From assembly GCA_946886185.1 (NCBI GenBank), contig CAMPIC010000058.1:1-10082 (forward strand): a stretch of DNA of 10,082 bases. Direction: 5' to 3'. The notes under the pieces are model-generated. The model searched no databases and had not been told where the DNA came from. It saw only the letters and a list, made by a program, of their open reading frames with translations. Shown here piece by piece: positions 1 to 10,082 of the stretch. The position numbers and the translations under genes were made by a program. This DNA is from an uncultured bacterium. Its GTDB lineage: Bacteria; Eisenbacteria; RBG-16-71-46; CAIMUX01. The first letter of the stretch is position 1. Each line of letters starts with the position of its first letter.

Positions 1-149
1 ATGTTCACACCGGGCACGAGCGTGATCTGAACGAGGTTTGGCGCGCAGTCGCATTCGGCCTGGCCCCTGGAGACTTGGGCCAGGCCGAACACCATGGTGA
101 GCGCAAGAAAGAAGGCCGGGAGCTGTCGGAGCAAGCGAATCGATGTCAT
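1..149 (-). CDS. Exported protein, N-terminal fragment (signal peptide plus 18 residues)
   Basis: The gene reads leftward from an ATG at 149-147 and runs off the window, so only 49 codons are visible. The N-terminus is a clear Sec signal peptide: basic n-region (SIRLLR), hydrophobic core (AFFLALTMVFGLA), and a probable cleavage site after SRGQA at residue 31. The mature protein begins ECDCAPNLV, with two early cysteines that could form a disulfide. The start codon overlaps the stop of the TPR-CHAT gene as ATGA (146-149), a classic translational-coupling junction, so this is the fourth gene of the sigma/CHAT cluster. The protein family cannot be recognised from 49 residues. A small Cys-containing exported protein fits a partner or an output of the CHAT system, but that is inference. 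A lipoprotein is unlikely because no lipobox precedes the first Cys. A 13-bp perfect inverted repeat lies within this coding stretch. Confidence 0.72.
   Translation of the reverse strand, partial: MTSIRLLRQLPAFFLALTMVFGLAQVSRGQAECDCAPNLVQITLVPGVN
54..89 (-). repeat. 13-bp perfect inverted repeat inside a signal-peptide coding region
   Basis: The arms 54-66 (TTCGGCCTGGCCC) and 77-89 (its exact reverse complement) flank a 10-nt loop at 67-76. In the leftward transcript this would fold into a GC-rich stem about 60 nt after the start codon, covering codons 21-32 of the exported protein. There is no T-run, so it does not look like an intrinsic terminator. It may slow translation during signal-peptide emergence, stabilise the transcript, or be coincidence in GC-rich DNA. 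Confidence 0.6.
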
Positions 150-3100
150 AGCGCCCTCGAATCGGCAGAGTTCATCCGCCTAGTGAGAGCCCCGGATGCG
201 CAAGGGTACCAGATCGGAACGCCATCGCGCCATCGCAAGGCTCGCGTTTTTCGTCTTGGTCGTGGAAAGCGGTTGGATAACGTCGTCGATTCCGATGGCC
301 CCATGGATTTCCCGATATCGGGCGCCGGTCCATCGAGCCCTCCGCTCGTGGAAAACGACGCCCATTGCCATGGATGGATCAGCTCCCGGCTGGTCTCGAG
401 CATCGCGCTCCGGAGGGACTCCGGGATGGAGGCGCCGCGCGAGAGGGAGCGATAGAAGCCATCCATGAGAGAAGCGGTGGCTCGATCCTCGATCGCCCAG
501 AGACTGGTCACCACAGTGGATGCCCCCGCATGGAGGAACCCCTGCGCCAGGCCGACCCATTCGTCCCCCGCCAGGCGCTCTCCTCTTCCGGAGGAGCAGG
601 CAGTGAGCACGACGATCGAGCCAGGTAGACGCAGAGCGCTCAGGTCGTGGACGAAGAGCGGACCGTCCGCGAGGTGCAGCTGAGAGAAGGCAGGGTTGTC
701 GGCGCGCAGCGATCCATGGGCCGCGAGGTGGATCAGATCGGCCCGGTCGCTCGCCGCGAGGAAGGTGGAGCGGGTCGGAGCACTGTCGCTTTGGACGCGC
801 CACCCGGAGAGATGGCTCACGACCGACTCGATCTCCCGCGAGATCCCGGGAAGCCGTTCCGATGCGACTCCGGCGACCCAGGCGGATCTCCAGCCCGGCT
901 TGCGATTCCTCTGCGCGATTCCGTTCCAGATGCGCGCGCTCGGTGTCATCGCGATGCAGGTGCGCTCCATGAGATAGCCGTTCGGGCCCAGCAGGGCCGG
1001 AAACGGGACGCGATGGAGCATCCCATGCGGCGAAACGATCCAATTGCGATCGCGCAGCACCGATTCGAGCGGCTCCCAGATCGACTCGTAGAGTTCGGCC
1101 AGCACTGCCCGGGTCGAGCCGAGCAGGGGATGATCGCTTTGGAAACGGACCGCTTCGCCGGCATCGCGGAGATAGGCCGCCTCCAGCGCTGCCGCTCCCC
1201 ATTGAAAGTCGAGCCTCTGCGTCGCCTCGGTCAGGCGCTGCGCCAGAGCCGGATCGAGCTGCTGGACGATCACGCGCGCGCGGTCCACCACGAGCGCGAC
1301 GGCGAACCCGTTCCCCACATGAAAGGCAAGGAATCCCCAACCGTCGGGCAGATTCGAGCGGAGCGAATCGAGGTCGGCGCCGAGCGCGGAAGCGGCTCCG
1401 GATAGAGGAGCCCCTTCCTGTTCGCGCAACTCGCGCATCAAGCGCTGCCATTCCCGCTCGCGTTCCCGCAGCTGTTCGCGCAGGGGCGCGGTCGCCGCTC
1501 TCTCCTTGGCCGTGCCGACTTCGAGTCGGGAGATACGAACGTGCAGCCAGGCGAGCTCGGAGCGGAGCGTCCGACTTTTGCGTTCCACGGCCGACACGCC
1601 CGGAGCCAGCGCCTCCATGGCAGGACCGCCCGGATGGCGAAATCGATCCCACAGAGTCTGCGCGCGCGACCGCTCCATCAGGCTGAAGACCCGTTCGGGA
1701 GACGGCCGCCGTGCTCCCAGCTCCAGGGCCAGCAGCCTGTCGAAGAGATGGGTTTTGTCCTCGAGGAACGAGATCTTGGAATCCTCGGTAGGGATGCGCA
1801 GACGCAGCGACTCCAGCAGCTCGATCGCCGATTCATAATGGGAGAGCGCTTTCTGCGTATCGTGCTCTTCGTCGCGAAGCGTTCCGAGCGCTTCGTGCAA
1901 GCGATATGCGACGAGCGGCTGATCCCGGTCGACCGTCCTGCCGAGCGCGCGCTCGAGGCGCAGGCCCGCGCGGTTCCGGTATCCGCGACGACTATCGAGC
2001 TTCGCCAACAAGACCGTTGCGGCCGATTCCCAGCGATCCAGCCCGAGCTTGCGGAATGCCGCCGCGGCGTCCCTCGCGCGCTCGTAAGCTTCCTCGACGC
2101 GCCCCTGTTGGAGCAGCGCCTCCGCCCAGAGCAGCCGCATCAATGCCACGCGCGCGGGATTGCGCTCAGCCTCGAAGATCCGCATGCCGCGGCGGATCGC
2201 CCGGAACGCAGCTCGCAGGTCTCCCACCGCGAGCGCCGAAAGCGCGATCTGATGGACCGCCTGCCCGCGGTCGTAGGCCATGCCGGCGCGCGCAAAGAGA
2301 CCTTCCGCCTCCGTAGCCAGCTCGAACGCCTCTTCCGCGAGATTCAAGTGATGGTAGATCTCGGCGCGATTGAGCAGGGAGTGGGCGGTGAACGCGGGAT
2401 GGTCGGTAGCGCGGAAATAGTGAATGGCGCGCCCGAGTCGCTCCAGAGCCTGATCGAACTCGCCGCGCTGCGAATGCACGAAAGCCGCATTCATCCGAAC
2501 TTGCGCCGCCAAAAGGTCCAGACCTGCTTCGTCGCTTTCGTGCTGGAGTCGATCGAATCGCTGCAGCGCTTCTTCGGGACGGTTCAGGTTGGAAAGGGCG
2601 ACCGCCCGGTTGATCTCCAGACCGAGCACCACCGGGTCGCGATGGCCCAGGCGTTCGAAGAGCTCGGCCGCCCGTGTGCACTCGTCCAGCGCCGCCGCGT
2701 GATCATCCTTGCGGAAGTGGAGATTCGCCAGGTTCATCGCGAGCTTTGCGAGATAGGGATCGTCTCCCGCGCGCTCGAGCAGCAGGCGCGCATCCTCCGC
2801 GGTTCGAAGCGCCGCATCGTAGCGGCTGAGCAAGGTCAGCACGTGAAGGTGCCCGACCAGGAGCTGCCCGAGCAGACCCGGCTCCTGCGCGCGCCGCCAT
2901 GCCGTCGCCGCGCGGCGATAGAACCGATCGGAATCGCTGAGCCGTCCCGAGAAGAGGAGCGCTTCGGCCATGAGCCGGAACGCCCAGCCGCGCGCCATGG
3001 GATCATGCACCCGCGCGGCCAGGTGAAGCGCGCATTCCGCGATCCGGCGCGCTTGCGCGGCATCGCTTCCGTAAAGGGGAAGGGCTCTTTCGCGGAGCCG

Positions 3101-3235
3101 GAGGACCCAATCGCTCGCGCCCGCGCCGGCCGCGCGCCCCCACGCCCCCAACCGCTCTTCATCCCAGGTGAGAATCTCCGCGAGGGTGGTATCCGAGGGT
3201 GCTGTTAGGGCCGGCGGCGGCGTGCGATCGCGCAT
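146..3235 (-). CDS. TPR-CHAT protein (caspase-like protease with TPR array)
   Basis: This 1029-residue protein has about ten TPR-like helical hairpins from residue 80 to 478. Clear examples are at 163-197, 204-238, 243-279, 284-318 and 444-478. A charged helical or coiled-coil linker follows at about 548-607, then a C-terminal CHAT domain at about 625-968. The CHAT landmarks are SPHGMLHRVPFPALL (735-749), the catalytic His840 in LIHLAAHG (codon 716-718) and the catalytic Cys880 in VLTACSSG (codon 596-598), followed by LAQGFLHAGASTVVTSLW and HPWQWASF. The dyad is intact, so proteolytic activity is expected, after an unknown residue. TPR-CHAT proteins are separase/caspase-like cysteine peptidases whose TPRs bind an activator or substrate. 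No signal peptide or membrane segment is seen, so it is probably cytoplasmic. About 60 basic, low-complexity residues follow the CHAT fold, longer than usual. The ATG is 1 nt after the upstream stop (TGACATG), and the TGA overlaps the next gene's ATG. Confidence 0.95.
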   Translation of the reverse strand: MRDRTPPPALTAPSDTTLAEILTWDEERLGAWGRAAGAGASDWVLRLRERALPLYGSDAAQARRIAECALHLAARVHDPMARGWAFRLMAEALLFSGRLSDSDRFYRRAATAWRRAQEPGLLGQLLVGHLHVLTLLSRYDAALRTAEDARLLLERAGDDPYLAKLAMNLANLHFRKDDHAAALDECTRAAELFERLGHRDPVVLGLEINRAVALSNLNRPEEALQRFDRLQHESDEAGLDLLAAQVRMNAAFVHSQRGEFDQALERLGRAIHYFRATDHPAFTAHSLLNRAEIYHHLNLAEEAFELATEAEGLFARAGMAYDRGQAVHQIALSALAVGDLRAAFRAIRRGMRIFEAERNPARVALMRLLWAEALLQQGRVEEAYERARDAAAAFRKLGLDRWESAATVLLAKLDSRRGYRNRAGLRLERALGRTVDRDQPLVAYRLHEALGTLRDEEHDTQKALSHYESAIELLESLRLRIPTEDSKISFLEDKTHLFDRLLALELGARRPSPERVFSLMERSRAQTLWDRFRHPGGPAMEALAPGVSAVERKSRTLRSELAWLHVRISRLEVGTAKERAATAPLREQLREREREWQRLMRELREQEGAPLSGAASALGADLDSLRSNLPDGWGFLAFHVGNGFAVALVVDRARVIVQQLDPALAQRLTEATQRLDFQWGAAALEAAYLRDAGEAVRFQSDHPLLGSTRAVLAELYESIWEPLESVLRDRNWIVSPHGMLHRVPFPALLGPNGYLMERTCIAMTPSARIWNGIAQRNRKPGWRSAWVAGVASERLPGISREIESVVSHLSGWRVQSDSAPTRSTFLAASDRADLIHLAAHGSLRADNPAFSQLHLADGPLFVHDLSALRLPGSIVVLTACSSGRGERLAGDEWVGLAQGFLHAGASTVVTSLWAIEDRATASLMDGFYRSLSRGASIPESLRSAMLETSRELIHPWQWASFSTSGGLDGPAPDIGKSMGPSESTTLSNRFPRPRRKTRALRWRDGVPIWYPCASGALTRRMNSADSRAL

Positions 3236-3236
3236 G

Positions 3237-3890
3237 TCACGACTTTACATGCTCGATCAAAGAAGCTTCTCCCCAACGAAGATGGAGATCCAAAGACGGC
3301 TCGAGCGGAAGCTGGAATCGGAACTCTCCGCTCTCCGGGAGGGGAATCTCCTGCCGGTCTGCGCCCGACGTCACCCGCGCGCTCCGATCGTCGGGGAGAC
3401 CCGAGCGATCGGTGGGGATGAACTGTCCGATGAGGTCGAGACGATCGTCCTTCCGGTCCACTTGCAGATAGAGCCGCCCCACCGGATACGCGATGAGGAT
3501 CTGGCGCGGCTGGGAATGCGCGTTTCGGACGCCGGCCAGCGGTCGCGCGGCGGTGTCGTAAACGAGGACCCCACGCACGGCAGCGAGAGCGTCCCGCACC
3601 TTGCCGGCCGCTTCCTGAACGATCTCGGAGATAAGGTCCGCCTGGGGCGAGCCCGATGCTTCGGCGCCCAGCGATCGCTTCGCCGTTCCGAGCAGCGCGA
3701 GGGCCTGCGCCGTCCAGCCGTCGGGCGTGGTCTCGAGCGTGGGGCACATGAGCTTCTCGACGAGACGCGCCCAGTCGAGGCGCTCCTCCTCGGAAACAGG
3801 CGATCCAGCCGCCCGCCGATCCTCGATGAGAGTCTGCACGGCGTGTTCCAACCGGTCTCGCCTGGAACGATTTTCGGAATTCGGATTCAT
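3237..3890 (-). CDS. Hypothetical protein of sigma/CHAT cluster, beta-rich C-terminal half
   Basis: The protein has 217 residues and no signal peptide or membrane helix. The N-terminal part (about 8-110) is helical and charged (RRDRLEHAVQTLIEDRR, SEEERLDWARLVEKL, DLISEIVQEAAGKVRDALAA). The C-terminal part (about 107-215) alternates hydrophobic strands with turns: GVLVYDT, RQILIAY, GRLYLQVDRKDDRLDLIGQFIP, GEFRFQLPLEPSLDLHLRW. The pattern 'D.L.LIGQ..P' followed by 'SGEFRFQLP' resembles the Ig-like or carboxypeptidase-regulatory-like beta sandwich that I recall near ECF sigma and CHAT genes in other bacteria. That recall is not verified by a search. It sits between the sigma factor and the protease, 127 nt after the sigma stop and 1 nt before the CHAT ATG. 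An adaptor, sigma-modulating partner or CHAT substrate is plausible but unproven. A weak GAAGAG Shine-Dalgarno lies upstream of the ATG at 3890. Confidence 0.85.
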   Translation of the reverse strand: MNPNSENRSRRDRLEHAVQTLIEDRRAAGSPVSEEERLDWARLVEKLMCPTLETTPDGWTAQALALLGTAKRSLGAEASGSPQADLISEIVQEAAGKVRDALAAVRGVLVYDTAARPLAGVRNAHSQPRQILIAYPVGRLYLQVDRKDDRLDLIGQFIPTDRSGLPDDRSARVTSGADRQEIPLPESGEFRFQLPLEPSLDLHLRWGEASLIEHVKS

Positions 3891-3960
3891 GATCTGCTCT
3901 TCAACTTGAAGATCTCGCGCTCCCTTCGACGGGATGGTTTCCTGTGTGCCGAGGCGTCGA

Positions 3961-3980
3961 GGACGACCTTCCGGCCGTCC
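3961..3980 (-). other. Intercistronic stem-loop with GGAA (GNRA-type) tetraloop
   Basis: Read on the minus strand, GGACGGCC and GGTCGTCC form an 8-bp stem (one G-U wobble in RNA) closed by GGAA, which matches the GNRA tetraloop consensus. It lies in the 127-nt gap between the sigma stop (4018) and the ATG of the 217-residue protein (3890), about 70 nt before that ATG. No T-tract follows, so it is not an intrinsic terminator. A second short stem (GCCCG/CGGGC, 4001-4017) lies just after the sigma stop. The pair could set the relative expression of sigma and the downstream genes. Confidence 0.45.
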
Positions 3981-4017
3981 GGGGAGTGGTTGGAGTTTGC
4001 GCCCGATTGATACGGGC

Positions 4018-4656
4018 TCATTCCAGCCATCCTCTCTCGTTGAAAAAATCGCGCAGGCGCTCCAGGCAGCGTCCCCGAATCGGACCGACGCTTCCCATGG
4101 AAAGGCCTTCCAGCTCCGCTACTTCCCGGTAATCGAGAGGCGGTTCGTCGAGGAAGAGAGCAGTGAGCATGCGGCGGCACCTCTCGGAGAGCGCAGCCAG
4201 GCCCTCGCGCAGCTGTTGAGCGCTCTGCAGCCGCTCGATCTCTTCGGGCGGGAGCAAGTCGGGCGCATGCGGATCGAGTCTCCGGGCGTGGTGAGCGTCT
4301 TCGATCTGCTCTATGCTCTCGCGCGCATACGTCCGGATGCGCATGGCGGCTTGCCGCATCGAGATTCCGATGATCCAGGGAACCAGGCTCTCCGGGCTGC
4401 GCAGCTGGATGAGCCGTTCGCTCACCGCGACGATGGTGGCTTGATACGCTTCCAGCCGATCGTCTTCGGTGAGCGAGTACTTGCGCAGCGTCGAGTAGAT
4501 CAAATCGGAGAAGCGGCGGAGGAACTCTTCCCATGCGCCGGGCGCGTCGTCGAGACAGAAGGGGAGCAGCTCAGCATGAGAAAGGGAAGTCCAGCGATCG
4601 GACGCGTCGGCCCGATTTCGACGATCGTGCGAGCCCTTGCGTCCGGGAGAATCCAT
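4018..4656 (-). CDS. RNA polymerase sigma factor, sigma-70/ECF-like
   Basis: The protein has 212 residues, the usual size for an ECF sigma factor. A sigma-2-like region spans about 30-110: a helical stretch starting AWEEFLRRFSDLIYSTL, then DRLEAYQATIVAVSERL and VPWIIGISMRQAAMRIR, the last matching the region 2.4 promoter-reading helix and its surroundings. A sigma-4-like region spans about 145-207: LREGLAALSERCRRMLTALFLDEPPLDYREVAELEG, then the helix-turn-helix recognition segment LSMGSVGPIRGRCLERLRDFF. The GS(V/I)GPxRxRCLxRLR signature is the well-known region 4.2 form of ECF-type factors. It would direct RNA polymerase to a dedicated promoter set. It is first in a leftward cluster with a 217-residue protein and a TPR-CHAT protease. 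No classical membrane anti-sigma gene is adjacent, so its control may run through those neighbours (inference). A few ATG-proximal basic residues precede region 2. The Shine-Dalgarno is weak (GAGA). Confidence 0.93.
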   Translation of the reverse strand: MDSPGRKGSHDRRNRADASDRWTSLSHAELLPFCLDDAPGAWEEFLRRFSDLIYSTLRKYSLTEDDRLEAYQATIVAVSERLIQLRSPESLVPWIIGISMRQAAMRIRTYARESIEQIEDAHHARRLDPHAPDLLPPEEIERLQSAQQLREGLAALSERCRRMLTALFLDEPPLDYREVAELEGLSMGSVGPIRGRCLERLRDFFNERGWLE

Positions 4657-5679: not shown

Positions 5680-5889
5680 GATGCGAAGAGTCGTCACGTT
5701 TCTCCGTGGCGAAGCAACCGAACCCGATGTTCCTGTGATAAAATCGTCGGATCGAGTGCAGACCCTGCGCACGCCGTGCGGCATCATCATCGCGCGGACG
5801 AGGTCAGAAGCGTGGGCCGCCGGAGCTCGCGTCGCACCCTCCGCAGAAACTCACGATTCGTTCGAATGCGAGTGACCGTCCGAATGTGC

Positions 5890-5896
5890 AAGGAGG
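5890..5896 (+). promoter_or_regulatory. Strong Shine-Dalgarno setting the subtilase start
   Basis: AAGGAGG lies 8 nt before the GTG at 5905 and 5 nt before an in-frame TTG at 5902. It argues against the longer in-frame starts at 5776, 5866-5872 and 5884, which lie upstream of or across it. The start at 5905 leaves a well-formed signal peptide at the N-terminus. Confidence 0.8.
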
Positions 5897-5904
5897 ATCG
5901 ATTG

Positions 5905-8268
5905 GTGGTTGCTATCTCGAGGCGCCCCGCCGTCCGCTCGACCTCATCCGTCCGCTGGGCTTTGTTGGCCACGTTCACCTGCGCCGTCTTCCTGCCCCGA
6001 TCCGCTCACGCGATCGAAGAATGGTCCGCGCGTGCATCGGTCTCCGACCCCTATCGGATCCTTCTCCAGGCGACGAGCTTCGACACCCGTCAAATGCCGC
6101 CCGTGTCCAAGCAAGGAGTCTCCGGCGCGAGCCGTGCGAGCAGCGAGTATCTCATCGTGCAGTTCGACCGGCCCATCGACGAAGAGGCCAAAGCGCGGAT
6201 CGAGCAATCCGGAGTCGACATCATCGGATACATCCCCAATCGCGCGCTGCTCGTTCGGGCCAGCGTGGAGGAAGAAGCGGCTCTCGACGCCGAGATGGTG
6301 CGTTGGGTCGGGGAGTACCGGGCCGAATACAAAGTGAGCCCCGAGATCGGCTCCCGCGAACACGCCGACCTGGCTCGCGCCGCGGACGATCACTTCTGGC
6401 TGACCGTCGAGGTCTTTCCCGGCGAGGATCTGCGCGCCGCTGCGGCGGCGGTCGAGGGGACCGGCGCCGTGGTCCTGGCGGTCGACGATGGCGCGTACGC
6501 GCAGCGTCTCCAGGTGCGCGCGCGCCCCGCACAGATCGAATCGATCGCGCAGATCCCGGCGGTGCAGTGGATCGAGGAGTGGCCGGAGATCACGGATCGA
6601 AACGACTCCAACGGCTGGATCCTGCAGAGCAACGTGCTGGACGGGACTCCGCTCTGGGATCGCGGCATTCGTGGCGCCGGCCAGATCGTCGGACACATCG
6701 ACGGTCTGTTGAAGATGGACAGCTGCTACTTCATGGATCCGGTCGACAATACGCCCGGCCCGAACCATCGCAAGGTCGTGGCATACCGCTCGAGCACGGG
6801 CCAGGGCGCGCAATCCCACGGCACCCACACCGCCGGCACCATCGCGGGCGATCAGGAACCGATCCAGGGAGTCGCCGCCAACGCCGGTCTGGCATATCAG
6901 GCGAGGATCTCGCACACCAACAGAGCGGACCTCACGGGATTCGGCAATACGACCTCGAATCTCGCCGAGTATCTGCAGTTCGCGCACGACGACGGCGCGC
7001 GGGTCCACACCAACTCCTGGGGCGACGATGGGACGATGCAGTACACCACCTGGGCGCGCGACATCGATCTCTTCAGCAGGATGAACGAGGATGCGCTGGT
7101 CGGTTTCGCGGTCACGAACACCGCGATCTTGCGCACTCCGGAAAATGCGAAGAACTGCCTCGCGGTCGGCGCGACGCGCGACACCCCGGACCAGGATCAA
7201 CATTCGTCGGGCGGCACCGGCCCCACCATCGACGGCCGGAGAAAGCCGGAGATCTATGCTCCGGGCCGGAGCACCGTGTCCGCGTCCACCACTCCCTGCG
7301 GCACGAGCTCTTCGAGCGGCACGAGCATGGCTTGTCCCGCGGTCATGGGAGCGGCCGCCCTGGTGCGGCAGTATTACGAAGAGGGTTGGCATCCTTCCGG
7401 CGTCGCGAAAGTGGAAGACGCCTTCGTTCCAACCGGCGCGCTCGTGAAGGCGACGCTGTTGAACGCGACGGTGGACATGAGCGGGATCGCCGGATATCCG
7501 TCCAATCAAGAAGGATGGGGGCGGCTGCTCCTCGATGACGCGGTGTACTTTTCCGGTGACCATCGCGTGCTCCAGCTCTGGGACGTCCGCCACGCGGAGG
7601 GGCTCGTGACCGACGAGGTCCGCGAGTACCAGATCGAGGCGCACGGCGGCGGCATCACGCGCGTCACGCTCGTCTTCACCGACGAGCCGGCCACGGTCGG
7701 CGCCGCCTTCGCCCCCGTGAACGATCTCGATCTGGAGATCACCGACGGAATCGTTACCTACTTCGGGAACGCGATCGTGGACGGAGTCTCCACCGACATC
7801 GGAGCTCCTGATCCGCTCAACAACGTCGAGATGGCGATCCTGCCCGGATTCGTGCCCACGACCTGGACGGTTCGGGTCCGCGCGCGGCAAGTGGTGGGCG
7901 ATCCGCAGGGATACGCGCTCGTCGTCACCGGCGATCTCGATGACCCGGCCGCGGCTCCGGAAGCGATCGCGGCCCGCGCTCCCATCCGGCTGCATCCGAA
8001 TCCGTTCGCTCCCGCGGCGGGGTCCCGCGATGGAGCATCGATCCAGTTCGAGCTGGACCGCACCGGGGACACCGAAGTGACCATTCATGACATCGCCGGC
8101 CGCCGCGTGCGCACTCTGGTCCACCGGAAGATGACCGCGGGGGCGCAGAATCTCTCCTGGGACGGACGAGGCAACGCGGGGGAGACGTTGCCGGCGGGCA
8201 GCTACTTCATCCGGATCTTCTCCGGAGGCAGCGAGCTGGGTACGCGCCGGGCCATTTTGCTTCCTTGA
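5905..8268 (+). CDS. Secreted S8 subtilisin-like serine protease with FlgD-like C-terminal domain
   Basis: The protein has 787 residues from the GTG at 5905. The signal peptide is residues 1-36 (core WALLATFTCAVFL, cleavage after SAHA). Two prodomain-like repeats follow: 82-148 (VRWVGEY at 132-138) and 164-232 (VQWIEEW at 220-226), each alpha/beta like inhibitor-I9 propeptides. The peptidase S8 domain spans about 235-545 with the full catalytic set: Asp266 (GHIDG), His305 (SHGTHTAGT), oxyanion Asn370 (HTNSWGD) and Ser474 (GTSMACP). Residues 553-680 form a jelly-roll-like module (PLNNVEMAILPG, WTVRVRA, YALVVTGD), as in many bacterial subtilases. Residues 694-787 are a FlgD/T9SS-like C-terminal beta domain (HPNPF, VTIHDIAGRRVRTLV, WDGRGNAGETLPAGSYFIRI). 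It is predicted to be exported, self-activated by propeptide removal, and to degrade extracellular or periplasmic proteins. The C-terminal domain may be a sorting or surface-anchoring signal. Longer upstream starts are in frame but poorly supported. Confidence 0.95.
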   Translation: MVAISRRPAVRSTSSVRWALLATFTCAVFLPRSAHAIEEWSARASVSDPYRILLQATSFDTRQMPPVSKQGVSGASRASSEYLIVQFDRPIDEEAKARIEQSGVDIIGYIPNRALLVRASVEEEAALDAEMVRWVGEYRAEYKVSPEIGSREHADLARAADDHFWLTVEVFPGEDLRAAAAAVEGTGAVVLAVDDGAYAQRLQVRARPAQIESIAQIPAVQWIEEWPEITDRNDSNGWILQSNVLDGTPLWDRGIRGAGQIVGHIDGLLKMDSCYFMDPVDNTPGPNHRKVVAYRSSTGQGAQSHGTHTAGTIAGDQEPIQGVAANAGLAYQARISHTNRADLTGFGNTTSNLAEYLQFAHDDGARVHTNSWGDDGTMQYTTWARDIDLFSRMNEDALVGFAVTNTAILRTPENAKNCLAVGATRDTPDQDQHSSGGTGPTIDGRRKPEIYAPGRSTVSASTTPCGTSSSSGTSMACPAVMGAAALVRQYYEEGWHPSGVAKVEDAFVPTGALVKATLLNATVDMSGIAGYPSNQEGWGRLLLDDAVYFSGDHRVLQLWDVRHAEGLVTDEVREYQIEAHGGGITRVTLVFTDEPATVGAAFAPVNDLDLEITDGIVTYFGNAIVDGVSTDIGAPDPLNNVEMAILPGFVPTTWTVRVRARQVVGDPQGYALVVTGDLDDPAAAPEAIAARAPIRLHPNPFAPAAGSRDGASIQFELDRTGDTEVTIHDIAGRRVRTLVHRKMTAGAQNLSWDGRGNAGETLPAGSYFIRIFSGGSELGTRRAILLP

Positions 8269-8370
8269 GCGCGCTCGTGGGAGGACAACCACGCGACTGG
8301 TAAAGATTTGACGGGCGTCCGCCGAAGGAGCATCAGGGATGTGCTCGGGGCGTGCCCGCTGCGCGGGACC

Positions 8371-8378
8371 AAGGAGGG
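8371..8378 (+). promoter_or_regulatory. Strong Shine-Dalgarno setting the cupredoxin-protein start
   Basis: AAGGAGGG lies 9 nt before the GTG at 8388. An upstream in-frame GTG at 8352 would put this purine run inside the coding region and add 12 residues that break the signal-peptide shape. A small 5-bp hairpin (CCCGC/GCGGG, 8355-8367) precedes it. Confidence 0.78.
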
Positions 8379-8387
8379 TCGAATCCC

Positions 8388-9104
8388 GTGCCTGCAAAAT
8401 CGGACCGGTTCGTAGGGTCGCTTCGGACGAGGTGGGGCGCGAGCCTGCTCGGACCCTTGGCGGCCGCTCTCATTCTCGCCTTCCCTTCTTCAGTAGAGGC
8501 CGGGCGGATTTCCGGAGTCATCCACCTCGCGCCCAAGCCGCCGGCGCCCAAATTCAACGCCTATCCGGGCCGAGCCCATGAACACTCCGGAGGAGATGTG
8601 TCCGAGGCGGAGGCGGGCGGCTATTCCGACGTGGTCGTCTACCTGGAGCCCGATTCCACGCTTTCTTCCACACCGCGCGCGTCCCATCCTCGCGCGGAGC
8701 TGACCCAATCGGGAATGGCGTTCGTTCCGCGCGTCCTGCCGATCATGGTCAAGGAATCGGTCGACTTTCCCAATCGCGACCCTTTCTATCACAACGTCTT
8801 TTCCTACTCGGCCACGAAGCGATTCGATCTGGGCAGGTACTCGGAGGGGGGAAACAGCACGGTGACGTTTCCCAATCCGGGCGAAGTGCGGGTGTTCTGC
8901 GACATCCACTCCGACATGAACGCCGTCATCCTCGTGCTCCCCAATCGCTTCTTCACGCAGCCCGACGCCGGCGGACGGTTCGGACTTCTCGACGTGCCTG
9001 CCGGAAAGCATCGGCTCACGGTATGGCATCCGGACGTGCCCGGAAAAACGATCGACGTGGACGTGACGGCCCAGTCGCCGCTCGAAGTGGAGATCAGTCT
9101 CTAA
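8388..9104 (+). CDS. Secreted cupredoxin-like (plastocyanin-type) copper protein
   Basis: The protein has 238 residues from the GTG at 8388. The signal peptide is residues 1-38 (RTR, then ASLLGPLAAALILAF, cleavage after SSVEA). The first mature stretch begins GRISGVIHL, like the first strand of a carboxypeptidase-regulatory-like fold, and carries a histidine-containing loop (RAHEHSGG). A cupredoxin domain at about 75-185 has the type-1 copper pattern: His136 (FYHNVF), Cys171, His174 and Met177 within VFCDIHSDMNAVILV. The C-terminal part (GRFGLLDVPAGKHRLTVWHP) again resembles a carboxypeptidase-regulatory beta module. The ligand set and export predict a periplasmic copper protein for electron transfer or metal/redox sensing. 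Its TAA is 1 nt before the ATG of a membrane sensor gene, which suggests the two proteins act together. Relatives are often annotated as methylamine utilization proteins; no such pathway is visible here. Confidence 0.88.
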   Translation: MPAKSDRFVGSLRTRWGASLLGPLAAALILAFPSSVEAGRISGVIHLAPKPPAPKFNAYPGRAHEHSGGDVSEAEAGGYSDVVVYLEPDSTLSSTPRASHPRAELTQSGMAFVPRVLPIMVKESVDFPNRDPFYHNVFSYSATKRFDLGRYSEGGNSTVTFPNPGEVRVFCDIHSDMNAVILVLPNRFFTQPDAGGRFGLLDVPAGKHRLTVWHPDVPGKTIDVDVTAQSPLEVEISL

Positions 9105-9105
9105 C

Positions 9106-10082
9106 ATGCGCCCCGTCTGGAGTCGGATTGGCCAGCAACTGCCACACTGGTTGCGCGAGCCCGGCTCGAAGACGGCCTCTCCCCCCATACCTCGCGGGCT
9201 CGGCCGCAGGATCTTCGCGCTCACCCTGGTTCCGACGCTGCTCATCGTTCTCACTACCTCCGCGCTGGTAGAAGTCCAGGTGAGCGAGCAGATGGAACGA
9301 GAAGTCGCGGGGCAGCTGACCGTCGCGCAGGGTGTGGCGCTCACGCTCATCGACGCGCGCTCCGAGGACATGGTCACGCAGAGCCGGATCGTGGCGCGCG
9401 ATCCCAAGTTCTTCGCCATGCTCGCTCAGCCCGGAATCGAAGAAGACCTCGCCTTCCGGCGCACTCTGCAGGGCATCGCCGATCAATTCGCCGCCACTTT
9501 GGGAGGTGACCTCTTCGAAGTGATCGACGCGAACGGAGCCTTGCAGGCGGTGTCCAACCGGACCGACCCTGCGCTGCGCGTGCACTACGGGAACCTGCCG
9601 CAAAGCGTGTCTAACCAGGCGGACGTGGCCGAGGCGCTGCAAGGACGCGTCGCGCGCGGCACGCGGGTGTTGAACGGCGCCATCTATCAGACGGTGACGG
9701 TGCCGGTCATCGCGGGCGGCCGCCTCGTGGGCGTGCTGCGCCACGGGCTGCGTCTCGACGATGAAATGACCGAGCGGATCCGGCGCATCACACGATGCGA
9801 AGTGAGCTTCCTGGCCGAAGGCGAGCCGGTCGTGACGACTCGTCTCAACGACACGGGGGAGTATCAGGTCCAGGACGCGGCGCTCCCCGATCTGCTGGGC
9901 CCGCTGTCAGCCAGTTTCCGGCTCGAGCGATCGACCGACATGGAAGCGCGCTTCCTGAGCCGGCTCCGGCTCCGCCTCCTGGTGATCAGCGCCCTCGTGG
10001 TCGGATTTGCATTGGTCCACGCGCGGCTCGTCGCGCAGCGCGTGATCCGGCCGGTAGAACAGCTGGTCGATGCGGCCTCGCG
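9106..10082 (+). CDS. Membrane sensor with periplasmic Cache-like domain and HAMP start, 3' truncated
   Basis: The frame is open from the ATG at 9106 to the window end (325 codons). A short cytoplasmic N-terminus is followed by membrane segment 1 at about 34-56 (RIFALTLVPTLLIVLTTSALVEV). A periplasmic sensing region at about 57-285 follows, with the Cache-type pattern LFEVIDANGALQAVSN, then VTVPVIAGGRLVGVLRHGLRLDD. Membrane segment 2 is at about 288-310 (LRLLVISALVVGFALVHARLVA). The last visible residues RVIRPVEQLVDAAS match the start of a HAMP domain. The output domain lies outside the window; a histidine kinase, diguanylate cyclase/phosphodiesterase, adenylate/guanylate cyclase or chemoreceptor are all possible. 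The start is 1 nt after the cupredoxin stop (TAACATG), with a weak GGAG 13 nt upstream, so translation is probably coupled. Function as a receptor for a signal related to the cupredoxin is inference from context. Confidence 0.9.
   Translation, partial: MRPVWSRIGQQLPHWLREPGSKTASPPIPRGLGRRIFALTLVPTLLIVLTTSALVEVQVSEQMEREVAGQLTVAQGVALTLIDARSEDMVTQSRIVARDPKFFAMLAQPGIEEDLAFRRTLQGIADQFAATLGGDLFEVIDANGALQAVSNRTDPALRVHYGNLPQSVSNQADVAEALQGRVARGTRVLNGAIYQTVTVPVIAGGRLVGVLRHGLRLDDEMTERIRRITRCEVSFLAEGEPVVTTRLNDTGEYQVQDAALPDLLGPLSASFRLERSTDMEARFLSRLRLRLLVISALVVGFALVHARLVAQRVIRPVEQLVDAAS

Follow-up and report, generated by a model that had tools for sequence, protein, structure and literature searches.

A conserved gene module with an ECF sigma factor, a predicted anti-sigma factor carrying a beta-sandwich, and a TPR-CHAT protease: a possible proteolytic switch outside CRISPR

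Can a caspase-like protease encoded beside a sigma factor set that sigma factor free by cutting a small protein encoded between the two? The question is raised by a locus on contig CAMPIC010000058.1 (assembly GCA_946886185.1) of an uncultured Eisenbacteria bacterium, which we analyzed as one stretch of 10,082 nucleotides, hereafter the window. Four leftward genes there encode an extracytoplasmic function (ECF) type sigma factor, a protein of 217 amino acids (aa), a protease that combines tetratricopeptide repeats (TPR) with a CHAT domain, and the start of an exported protein. The initial annotation had compared this module with the protease, partner, and sigma factor of Craspase, the type III-E CRISPR system, and had proposed a proteolysis-triggered transcription switch. 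We call the protein encoded between the sigma and CHAT genes the mid protein and its relatives, the 217-aa protein included, the mid family. The main result is that the CHAT gene accompanies mid proteins with a particular C-terminal domain, in an anti-sigma family whose genes recur between sigma and CHAT genes in several phyla. The features of the window to which the text refers are as follows.

4018..4656, minus strand: ECF-type sigma-70 family sigma factor, 212 aa (TIGR02937 sigma70-ECF; homologs; PDB profile matches)
3891..4017, minus strand: spacer of 127 bases, sigma gene to anti-sigma gene
3237..3890, minus strand: predicted soluble anti-sigma factor, 217 aa, with N-terminal helices and a C-terminal beta-sandwich (mid-family profile, E = 3.6e-15)
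3582..3890, minus strand: helical N-terminal part, residues 1-103, predicted to bind sigma, without the HxxxCxxC zinc motif (model, family PDB matches, motif count)
3240..3569, minus strand: immunoglobulin-like (Ig-like) beta-sandwich, residues 108-217, the part predicted to be recognized by CHAT
3525..3527, minus strand: Arg122 codon; the residue lies in the loop joining strands 108-112 and 129-135 and is a candidate for cleavage or docking (conservation)
146..3235, minus strand: TPR-CHAT caspase-like protease, 1029 aa (Pfam CHAT 6.7e-50, TPR_12 5.5e-17)
341..1108, minus strand: CHAT protease domain, residues 710-965 (Pfam)
716..718, minus strand: catalytic His840 codon (109/109 aligned CHAT domains)
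596..598, minus strand: catalytic Cys880 codon (109/109 aligned CHAT domains)
1..149, minus strand: first 49 residues of an exported protein whose gene runs off the window; by its position, probably a subtilase (S8) that has a propeptide (31/34 counterparts elsewhere are Peptidase_S8)

The gene content was as initially described. All four genes lie on the minus strand at the expected coordinates, and the close coupling of the last three can be read directly in the sequence, with a 1-nucleotide gap (base 3236) between the 217-aa gene and the TPR-CHAT gene and an ATGA overlap at 149-146 between the TPR-CHAT gene and the fourth gene. The sigma factor scored above the TIGR02937 cut-off (54.9 versus 42.9 bits), in keeping with its assignment as ECF-like, and had 61 homologs at E <= 0.001; homolog P0013 is 50% identical to it, and a 19-sequence profile of its family matched SigH, RpoE, and SigW in the PDB. 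Pfam placed TPR repeats ahead of the CHAT domain in the protease (CHAT, E = 6.7e-50), whose His840/Cys880 dyad is intact, as had been noted. No CRISPR-like repeat array was found in the 10-kb window, and none of the eight window open reading frames (ORFs) scanned against Pfam and NCBIfam matched Cas7-11, which agrees with the earlier statement that no Cas genes are visible; the window also held no Rfam match and no tRNA.

Next, we looked at whether this gene order is kept elsewhere. GTDB contigs were scanned with the sigma alignment, and the 80 best loci among the matches listed were analyzed. Sigma, mid protein, and CHAT followed one another in this order on one strand in 46 of the 80, including three loci (L006, L026, and L058) where a separate, shorter ORF encodes the CHAT domain. 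Because it recurs in so many loci picked by sigma alone, the arrangement goes beyond chance. The CHAT gene holds the same place in three more loci (L032, L039, and L041), where the order is hidden by ORF starts, bringing the count to 49 of 80. One further locus (L030) has the same genes with an inserted exported-protein gene, the CHAT gene is divergent, convergent, or upstream in eight (L043, L057, L069, L073, L076, L077 from the cultured Dactylosporangium vinaceum, L078, and L080), and in the other 22 a contig border is near, the TPR gene is broken or truncated, or CHAT is missing. Going by their record titles, all but a few of the 49 loci can be assigned to Chloroflexota, Planctomycetota, Acidobacteriota, Armatimonadota, Actinomycetota, Pseudomonadota (Burkholderiales), and Eisenbacteria; the conservation across phyla that the initial annotation had named as a check is thus present. 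Among 47 genomes of an Eisenbacteria record's phylum, the best match to the 217-aa family was in genome G014 (3.7e-19), and there, in locus L120, the sigma, mid protein, CHAT, and subtilase genes are arranged as in the window.

Two variant arrangements were also seen. At L057:8854-14084, from Eisenbacteria, the CHAT gene has an anti-sigma protein of its own upstream and is met by a convergent sigma/anti-sigma pair. At L123:5201-12150, from the same Krumholzibacteriota genome as L076, two same-strand sigma/anti-sigma pairs flank one CHAT gene and an exported-protein gene on the opposite strand, and a single protease may serve two sigma factors there.

What kind of protein stands between the sigma factor and the protease? 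The window protein has only four homologs besides itself in the protein collection, but a profile of 41 mid proteins, from which the window was excluded, found it with an E value of 3.6e-15 over residues 13-210. For the family as a whole, we used an alignment of 65 sequences (A4), made up of the window protein, four database proteins, and 60 of the 71 mid ORFs of the sigma-found loci; those of L013, L014, L036, L048, L049, L054, L064, L065, L068, L072, and L078 were left out, at least four of which match N-terminally only. The NCBIfam "anti-sigma factor" model matched 23 of the 65 members, RsrA 7, two ChrR-type models 4 and 3, and Pfam zf-HC2 6, while CarboxypepD_reg was found in 12, the window member not among them. 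Against the PDB, the N terminus of the family profile matched RsiW (2.1e-4), DdvA (2.1e-4), and ChrR (0.0089), and its C terminus matched NOMO2 (8.1e-12). A model of the window protein built with the 65 sequences (mean predicted local distance difference test score [pLDDT], 81) has helices at 5-27, 34-48, 59-69, and 84-103, followed by a beta-sandwich with strands at 108-216, the beta-rich half noticed earlier, whose ten-residue blocks from residue 111 on have mean pLDDT values of 83-96. Given the anti-sigma model and PDB matches together with this structural model, the mid family is, as judged from sequence and predicted fold, one of anti-sigma factors to which an Ig-like domain has been added at the C terminus, and the window member is predicted to be an anti-sigma factor by kinship and architecture.

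Some relatives depart from this plan. In L061, L064, L065, L068, and L072, the anti-sigma neighbor of the sigma relative matches N-terminally only and has another C-terminal part, and no CHAT was found in the available sequence of these loci. At L020:9536-10597, in Geodermatophilus siccatus, two anti-sigma family proteins lie tail to tail on opposite strands with no CHAT within reach.

We then compared the company kept by mid proteins with that kept by anti-sigma-type proteins in general. For a second sample, genomes of three phyla (251, 246, and 247 of them) and known genomes were searched with the mid profile. The sample comprised 71 regions, that is, 18 of 20, 14 of 16, and 30 of 32 mid-hit places in the three phyla plus nine regions from known genomes; places left out were already in the set, apart from one covered by the same region and one at a contig end. 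Among the 67 distinct mid proteins, 55 had a CHAT gene within 6 kb on either strand, 5 had none although 4 kb could be read on both sides, and 7 were not evaluable owing to contig ends, which gives 55 of 60. A sigma gene adjoined 48 of the 67 (contig ends included), and a subtilase gene lay within 6 kb of 45. The control set consisted of 20 anti-sigma-type proteins that match the N-terminal part alone, taken from 12 genomes that carry the module. A sigma gene adjoined 17 of these and was missing beside 3, and CHAT was found within 6 kb of just one, as a 48-bit match on the opposite strand. The difference was significant for 55/60 versus 1/20 (Fisher test, P value = 7e-13), when the controls were limited to the 15 that have 4 kb to either side (P value = 3e-10), and for 55/67 versus 1/20 (P value = 3e-10), where all three P values treat related loci as independent and several members share one genome. 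These results show that the CHAT gene accompanies the beta-sandwich rather than sigma/anti-sigma pairs at large.

This association bears on two other accounts of the locus. In the first, the CHAT protease and the subtilase are outputs: the anti-sigma factor would sense a ligand or a stress via its beta-sandwich, and the released sigma factor would switch on both enzymes, which would act on other targets, in stress proteolysis or cell death. The tight coupling of the genes fits such an account, and the neighbors of ECF sigma genes are often the sigma factor's targets. TPR-CHAT proteases elsewhere cut gasdermins, as a passage in PMC9729208 describes, and other soluble anti-sigma factors respond to cytoplasmic signals unaided according to the treatment of such factors in PMC8999054. 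A mere output gene would have no need to be tied to a beta-sandwich anti-sigma factor, however, as the CHAT gene is in 55 of 60 cases versus 1 of 20, and a simple search did not find a promoter motif before the sigma genes; we regard this account as unlikely, though worth keeping in mind. In the second, CHAT would act on the sigma factor itself, degrading or trimming it, which accords with the printed proposal for the ECF54 sigma group that proteolytic enzymes control the sigma factor where no anti-sigma factor was recognized (in the ECF54 description of PMC8999054). Here, the neighbor of the sigma factor is an anti-sigma factor by family, and it is the C-terminal domain of this neighbor that the presence of CHAT tracks, which makes direct control improbable in our view.

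The account that we favor, and hold to be reasonably probable on the strength of sequence, modeling, and analogy, is that the locus is an intracellular switch in which CHAT cuts a soluble anti-sigma factor and frees the ECF sigma factor. The helical N-terminal part of the 217-aa protein would keep the sigma factor inactive, and the C-terminal beta-sandwich would be the handle by which the TPR-CHAT protease recognizes it. An intracellular signal sensed via the TPR part would activate CHAT through His840 and Cys880, the protease would then cut the anti-sigma factor, perhaps in the Arg122 loop, and the freed sigma factor would drive a regulon that possibly includes the exported subtilase. Of the switch put forward in the initial annotation, the proteolytic trigger has thus gained from the gene order across phyla, the anti-sigma family of the small partner, and the link between CHAT and its C-terminal domain, while no kinship of the partner's family with Csx30, the Craspase substrate, was found.

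Which residues could such a switch use? All 109 unique CHAT domains aligned from module loci retain His840 and Cys880, and the enzymes therefore look active. On the substrate side, we counted Arg122 over 142 stretches that reach the Gly155 column and have distinct ends, of which 117 have CHAT within 6 kb, 9 have none with 4 kb on both sides, and 16 lie near a contig end or have a more distant CHAT. All 117 members that have CHAT within 6 kb carry the arginine, which is the most constant column of that set (Phe190, 115; Gly155, 113), and so do 15 of the 16 members near a contig end or with CHAT farther away. On this pattern, Arg122 is a good candidate for a residue that CHAT recognizes or cuts at.

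Several observations weigh against the favored account or against the part given in it to Arg122. The mid profile was built mainly from CHAT loci and may favor CHAT-linked members. On its own, the window 217-aa protein matches no Pfam or NCBIfam family and no anti-sigma model, and the HxxxCxxC motif, which it lacks, occurs in just 8 of the 65 aligned family members. A dyad search upstream of 121 sigma genes, a simple one, returned no shared promoter motif. Arg122 is also present in 8 of the 9 members with no CHAT in reach, and the loop that carries it, which links the first strand of the sandwich to the others, has pLDDT values of 83-86 and is not predicted as disordered; because it is kept in CHAT-less members and in a fairly confident loop, its conservation may be structural. 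In alignment A4, moreover, Arg122 (63/65) is no more constant than Gly155 and Phe190 (64/65 each); its two exceptions are L059, which has Q and no CHAT in reach, and L063, where the R is one place off. Finally, the column at Ala921 of the CHAT domain, where the arginine-binding residue of separase would fall, holds A in 63 of 109 and an acidic residue in 1 of 109.

Three candidates tried along the way were set aside. The promoter dyads were G+C-rich pairs in up to 10 sequences versus 7 to 8 in mononucleotide shuffles, and no motif is claimed. D917, kept in 107 of 109 CHAT domains, was rejected as a separase-like arginine-binding residue, since the position of separase D2151 falls four residues later, on A921, a placement obtained by arithmetic from the range of an ungapped alignment with separase chains and from what we take to be the number of the separase cysteine. 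In PMC9729208, D2151 is named as the residue with which separase holds the arginine that precedes the cut, and it is described as replaced in Csx29. E801 is present in 109 of 109 CHAT domains and lies near where other clan CD proteases bind the residue before the cut (as outlined in PMC4626109), but it gives no support because the printed Csx29 alignment appears to keep it as well. As the acidic residue of separase is not kept in these CHAT domains and Craspases cut at unconserved sites (a point made in PMC11106740), a cut specific to arginine is no more than predicted.

The fourth gene begins at 149, and the 49 residues seen have, by eye, a signal-peptide-like start followed by what resembles the beginning of a fervidolysin-type propeptide. 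In other modules, the ORF after CHAT is Peptidase_S8 in 31 of 34 cases, 19 of them with a fervidolysin-type propeptide (set A3 consists of these 34 downstream ORFs; the other modules of the 47 had no ORF of 150 aa in range). Searches of the 49-residue fragment by profile and phmmer gave nothing significant (3.1 bits versus 4.7 for the best of 200 shuffles). From the gene order of its relatives, the fourth gene is probably a subtilase with a propeptide. A second, different subtilase, with a FlgD-type Ig domain, is encoded on the plus strand at 5776-8268, with 1.1 kb separating it from the sigma gene, and scores 39.8 bits against the module subtilase profile. Beyond it are a small protein at 8352-9104 with weak cupredoxin and carboxypeptidase-regulatory matches and a dCache-type sensory domain protein that starts at 9106 and is cut by the window end (8352-10080 for the two together).

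Is the module a piece of type III-E CRISPR or a defense system of another kind? The window TPR-CHAT protein matched Csx29 chains in the PDB with an E value of 4e-4, which became 1e-18 with a 54-sequence CHAT profile (A5, 54 of 55 prepared stretches with L201 dropped, every second of the list; A6 took 39 of 114); against the Csx29 family model NF041237, it scored 37.5 bits, below the 300-bit cut-off. The 217-aa protein had no NCBIfam match to Csx30 at E <= 1, and the mid family, compared with one bona fide Csx30 (L119), gave an hhalign probability of 0.1%. These comparisons revealed no kinship between the 217-aa family and Csx30; the family is an anti-sigma one with a beta-sandwich of its own. 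The window sigma factor showed generic similarity only to a type III-E sigma factor. A weak hit in another type III-E locus, L118, was rejected as a sign of special kinship because it falls in a zinc-finger anti-sigma domain, which is common. That locus (L118:9685-15795) has a strong Csx29 match (904 bits). Where Csx30 would be expected, it encodes a protein of 514 aa with no match to the Csx30 model but with one clear and one possible zinc-finger anti-sigma repeat, and a divergent sigma-like gene of 410 aa adjoins it. The role of Csx30 may be filled there by an ordinary anti-sigma type.

An anti-phage defense system, or a type III-E remnant left after loss of the Cas genes, would account for the same three kinds of part as in Craspase, and the mid family is indeed patchy, occurring in 13 of 251, 11 of 246, and 20 of 247 genomes of the three phyla at E <= 1e-15 (lower bounds, at most 12 candidates having been scored per genome). 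PADLOC matched the CHAT protein to BovA at 30 bits and left the 217-aa protein and the sigma factor without a match, so that nothing specific to defense stands behind the defense role once considered possible. With Csx30 similarity not found, sigma similarity generic only, no repeat array found in the window, and seven family members in one genome (G834), as for signaling systems, we think this origin very improbable.

How, then, does the module relate to systems already described? Its gene context is already known. In the part of PMC8999054 devoted to the ECF54 sigma group, CHAT, subtilase, and carboxypeptidase-type neighbors are listed, the group is printed as lacking an anti-sigma factor, with proteolytic enzymes proposed to control the sigma factor, and the model comes from Geodermatophilus amargosae. 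Since ECF54 is in print and a Geodermatophilus siccatus locus (L020) is among the loci here, the sigma-CHAT-subtilase context is not new; the likeness seen here is one of gene context. The window has the CHAT gene and, by inference, the subtilase gene, while CarboxypepD_reg occurs in family members (12/65) other than that of the window. The two descriptions differ in that the protein adjoining the sigma factor here is an anti-sigma family member. The anti-sigma neighbor, the link between CHAT and the beta-sandwich, and the Craspase comparison were not found in searches of open-licence PMC papers, which did not include the two original ECF classification papers, and the anti-sigma identity and CHAT-linked domain of the sigma factor's neighbor appear to be new. 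If the favored account is true, the printed view of ECF54-type sigma factors as devoid of anti-sigma factors is corrected, and a group of bacterial CHAT proteases gains a predicted substrate next door.

Class I anti-sigma factors such as RsiW, RskA, and ChrR share the N-terminal helical anti-sigma domain (in the window member via the family profile only) and a gene adjoining the sigma gene (in the window and in 48/67 of the mid-profile sample). RsiW-type factors are cut by site-1 and site-2 proteases. The window member differs in having no evident membrane segment, a C-terminal Ig-like domain, and a CHAT neighbor. In the CalpL/CalpT/CalpS switch of type III CRISPR, a protease likewise cuts an inhibitor and frees a sigma factor, with a Lon-like protease and a SAVED sensor instead of CHAT. 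By its CHAT domain and His/Cys dyad, the window protease falls among the CHAT cysteine proteases of clan CD. EACC2-caspase conflict systems, in the account of them in PMC8195603, likewise bring together a caspase-fold protease, a TPR protein (DUF1822), and an ECF sigma factor in one neighborhood, but with EACC2 and caspase domains in place of TPR-CHAT; the term "anti-sigma" is absent from the main text of that paper.

The closest parallel is the output arm of Craspase. There, according to PMC10028731, the TPR-CHAT protease Csx29 cuts Csx30, which inhibits the sigma factor and is recognized via its C-terminal domain. A TPR-CHAT protease, a two-domain partner, and a sigma factor are present in both, and the two CHAT domains have fold and dyad in common, with distant sequences; in contrast, a Csx30 relative, Cas7-11, Csx31, and an array were not found in the window. 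Because kinship with Csx30 is missing when real type III-E loci (L118 and L119) are compared, the module is not a member of Craspase, and by sequence and analogy it is a system that would work like its output arm; its input signal must differ from that of Craspase. If so, regulated cleavage of anti-sigma factors by caspase relatives is a widespread type of bacterial signaling and not a CRISPR specialty; here, the substrate and its recognition domain can be named, as can a few residues open to testing. More speculatively, and as an idea that we think doubtful when taken as a whole, type III-E CRISPR may have adopted such an output arm, with an RNA-guided complex replacing the sensor.

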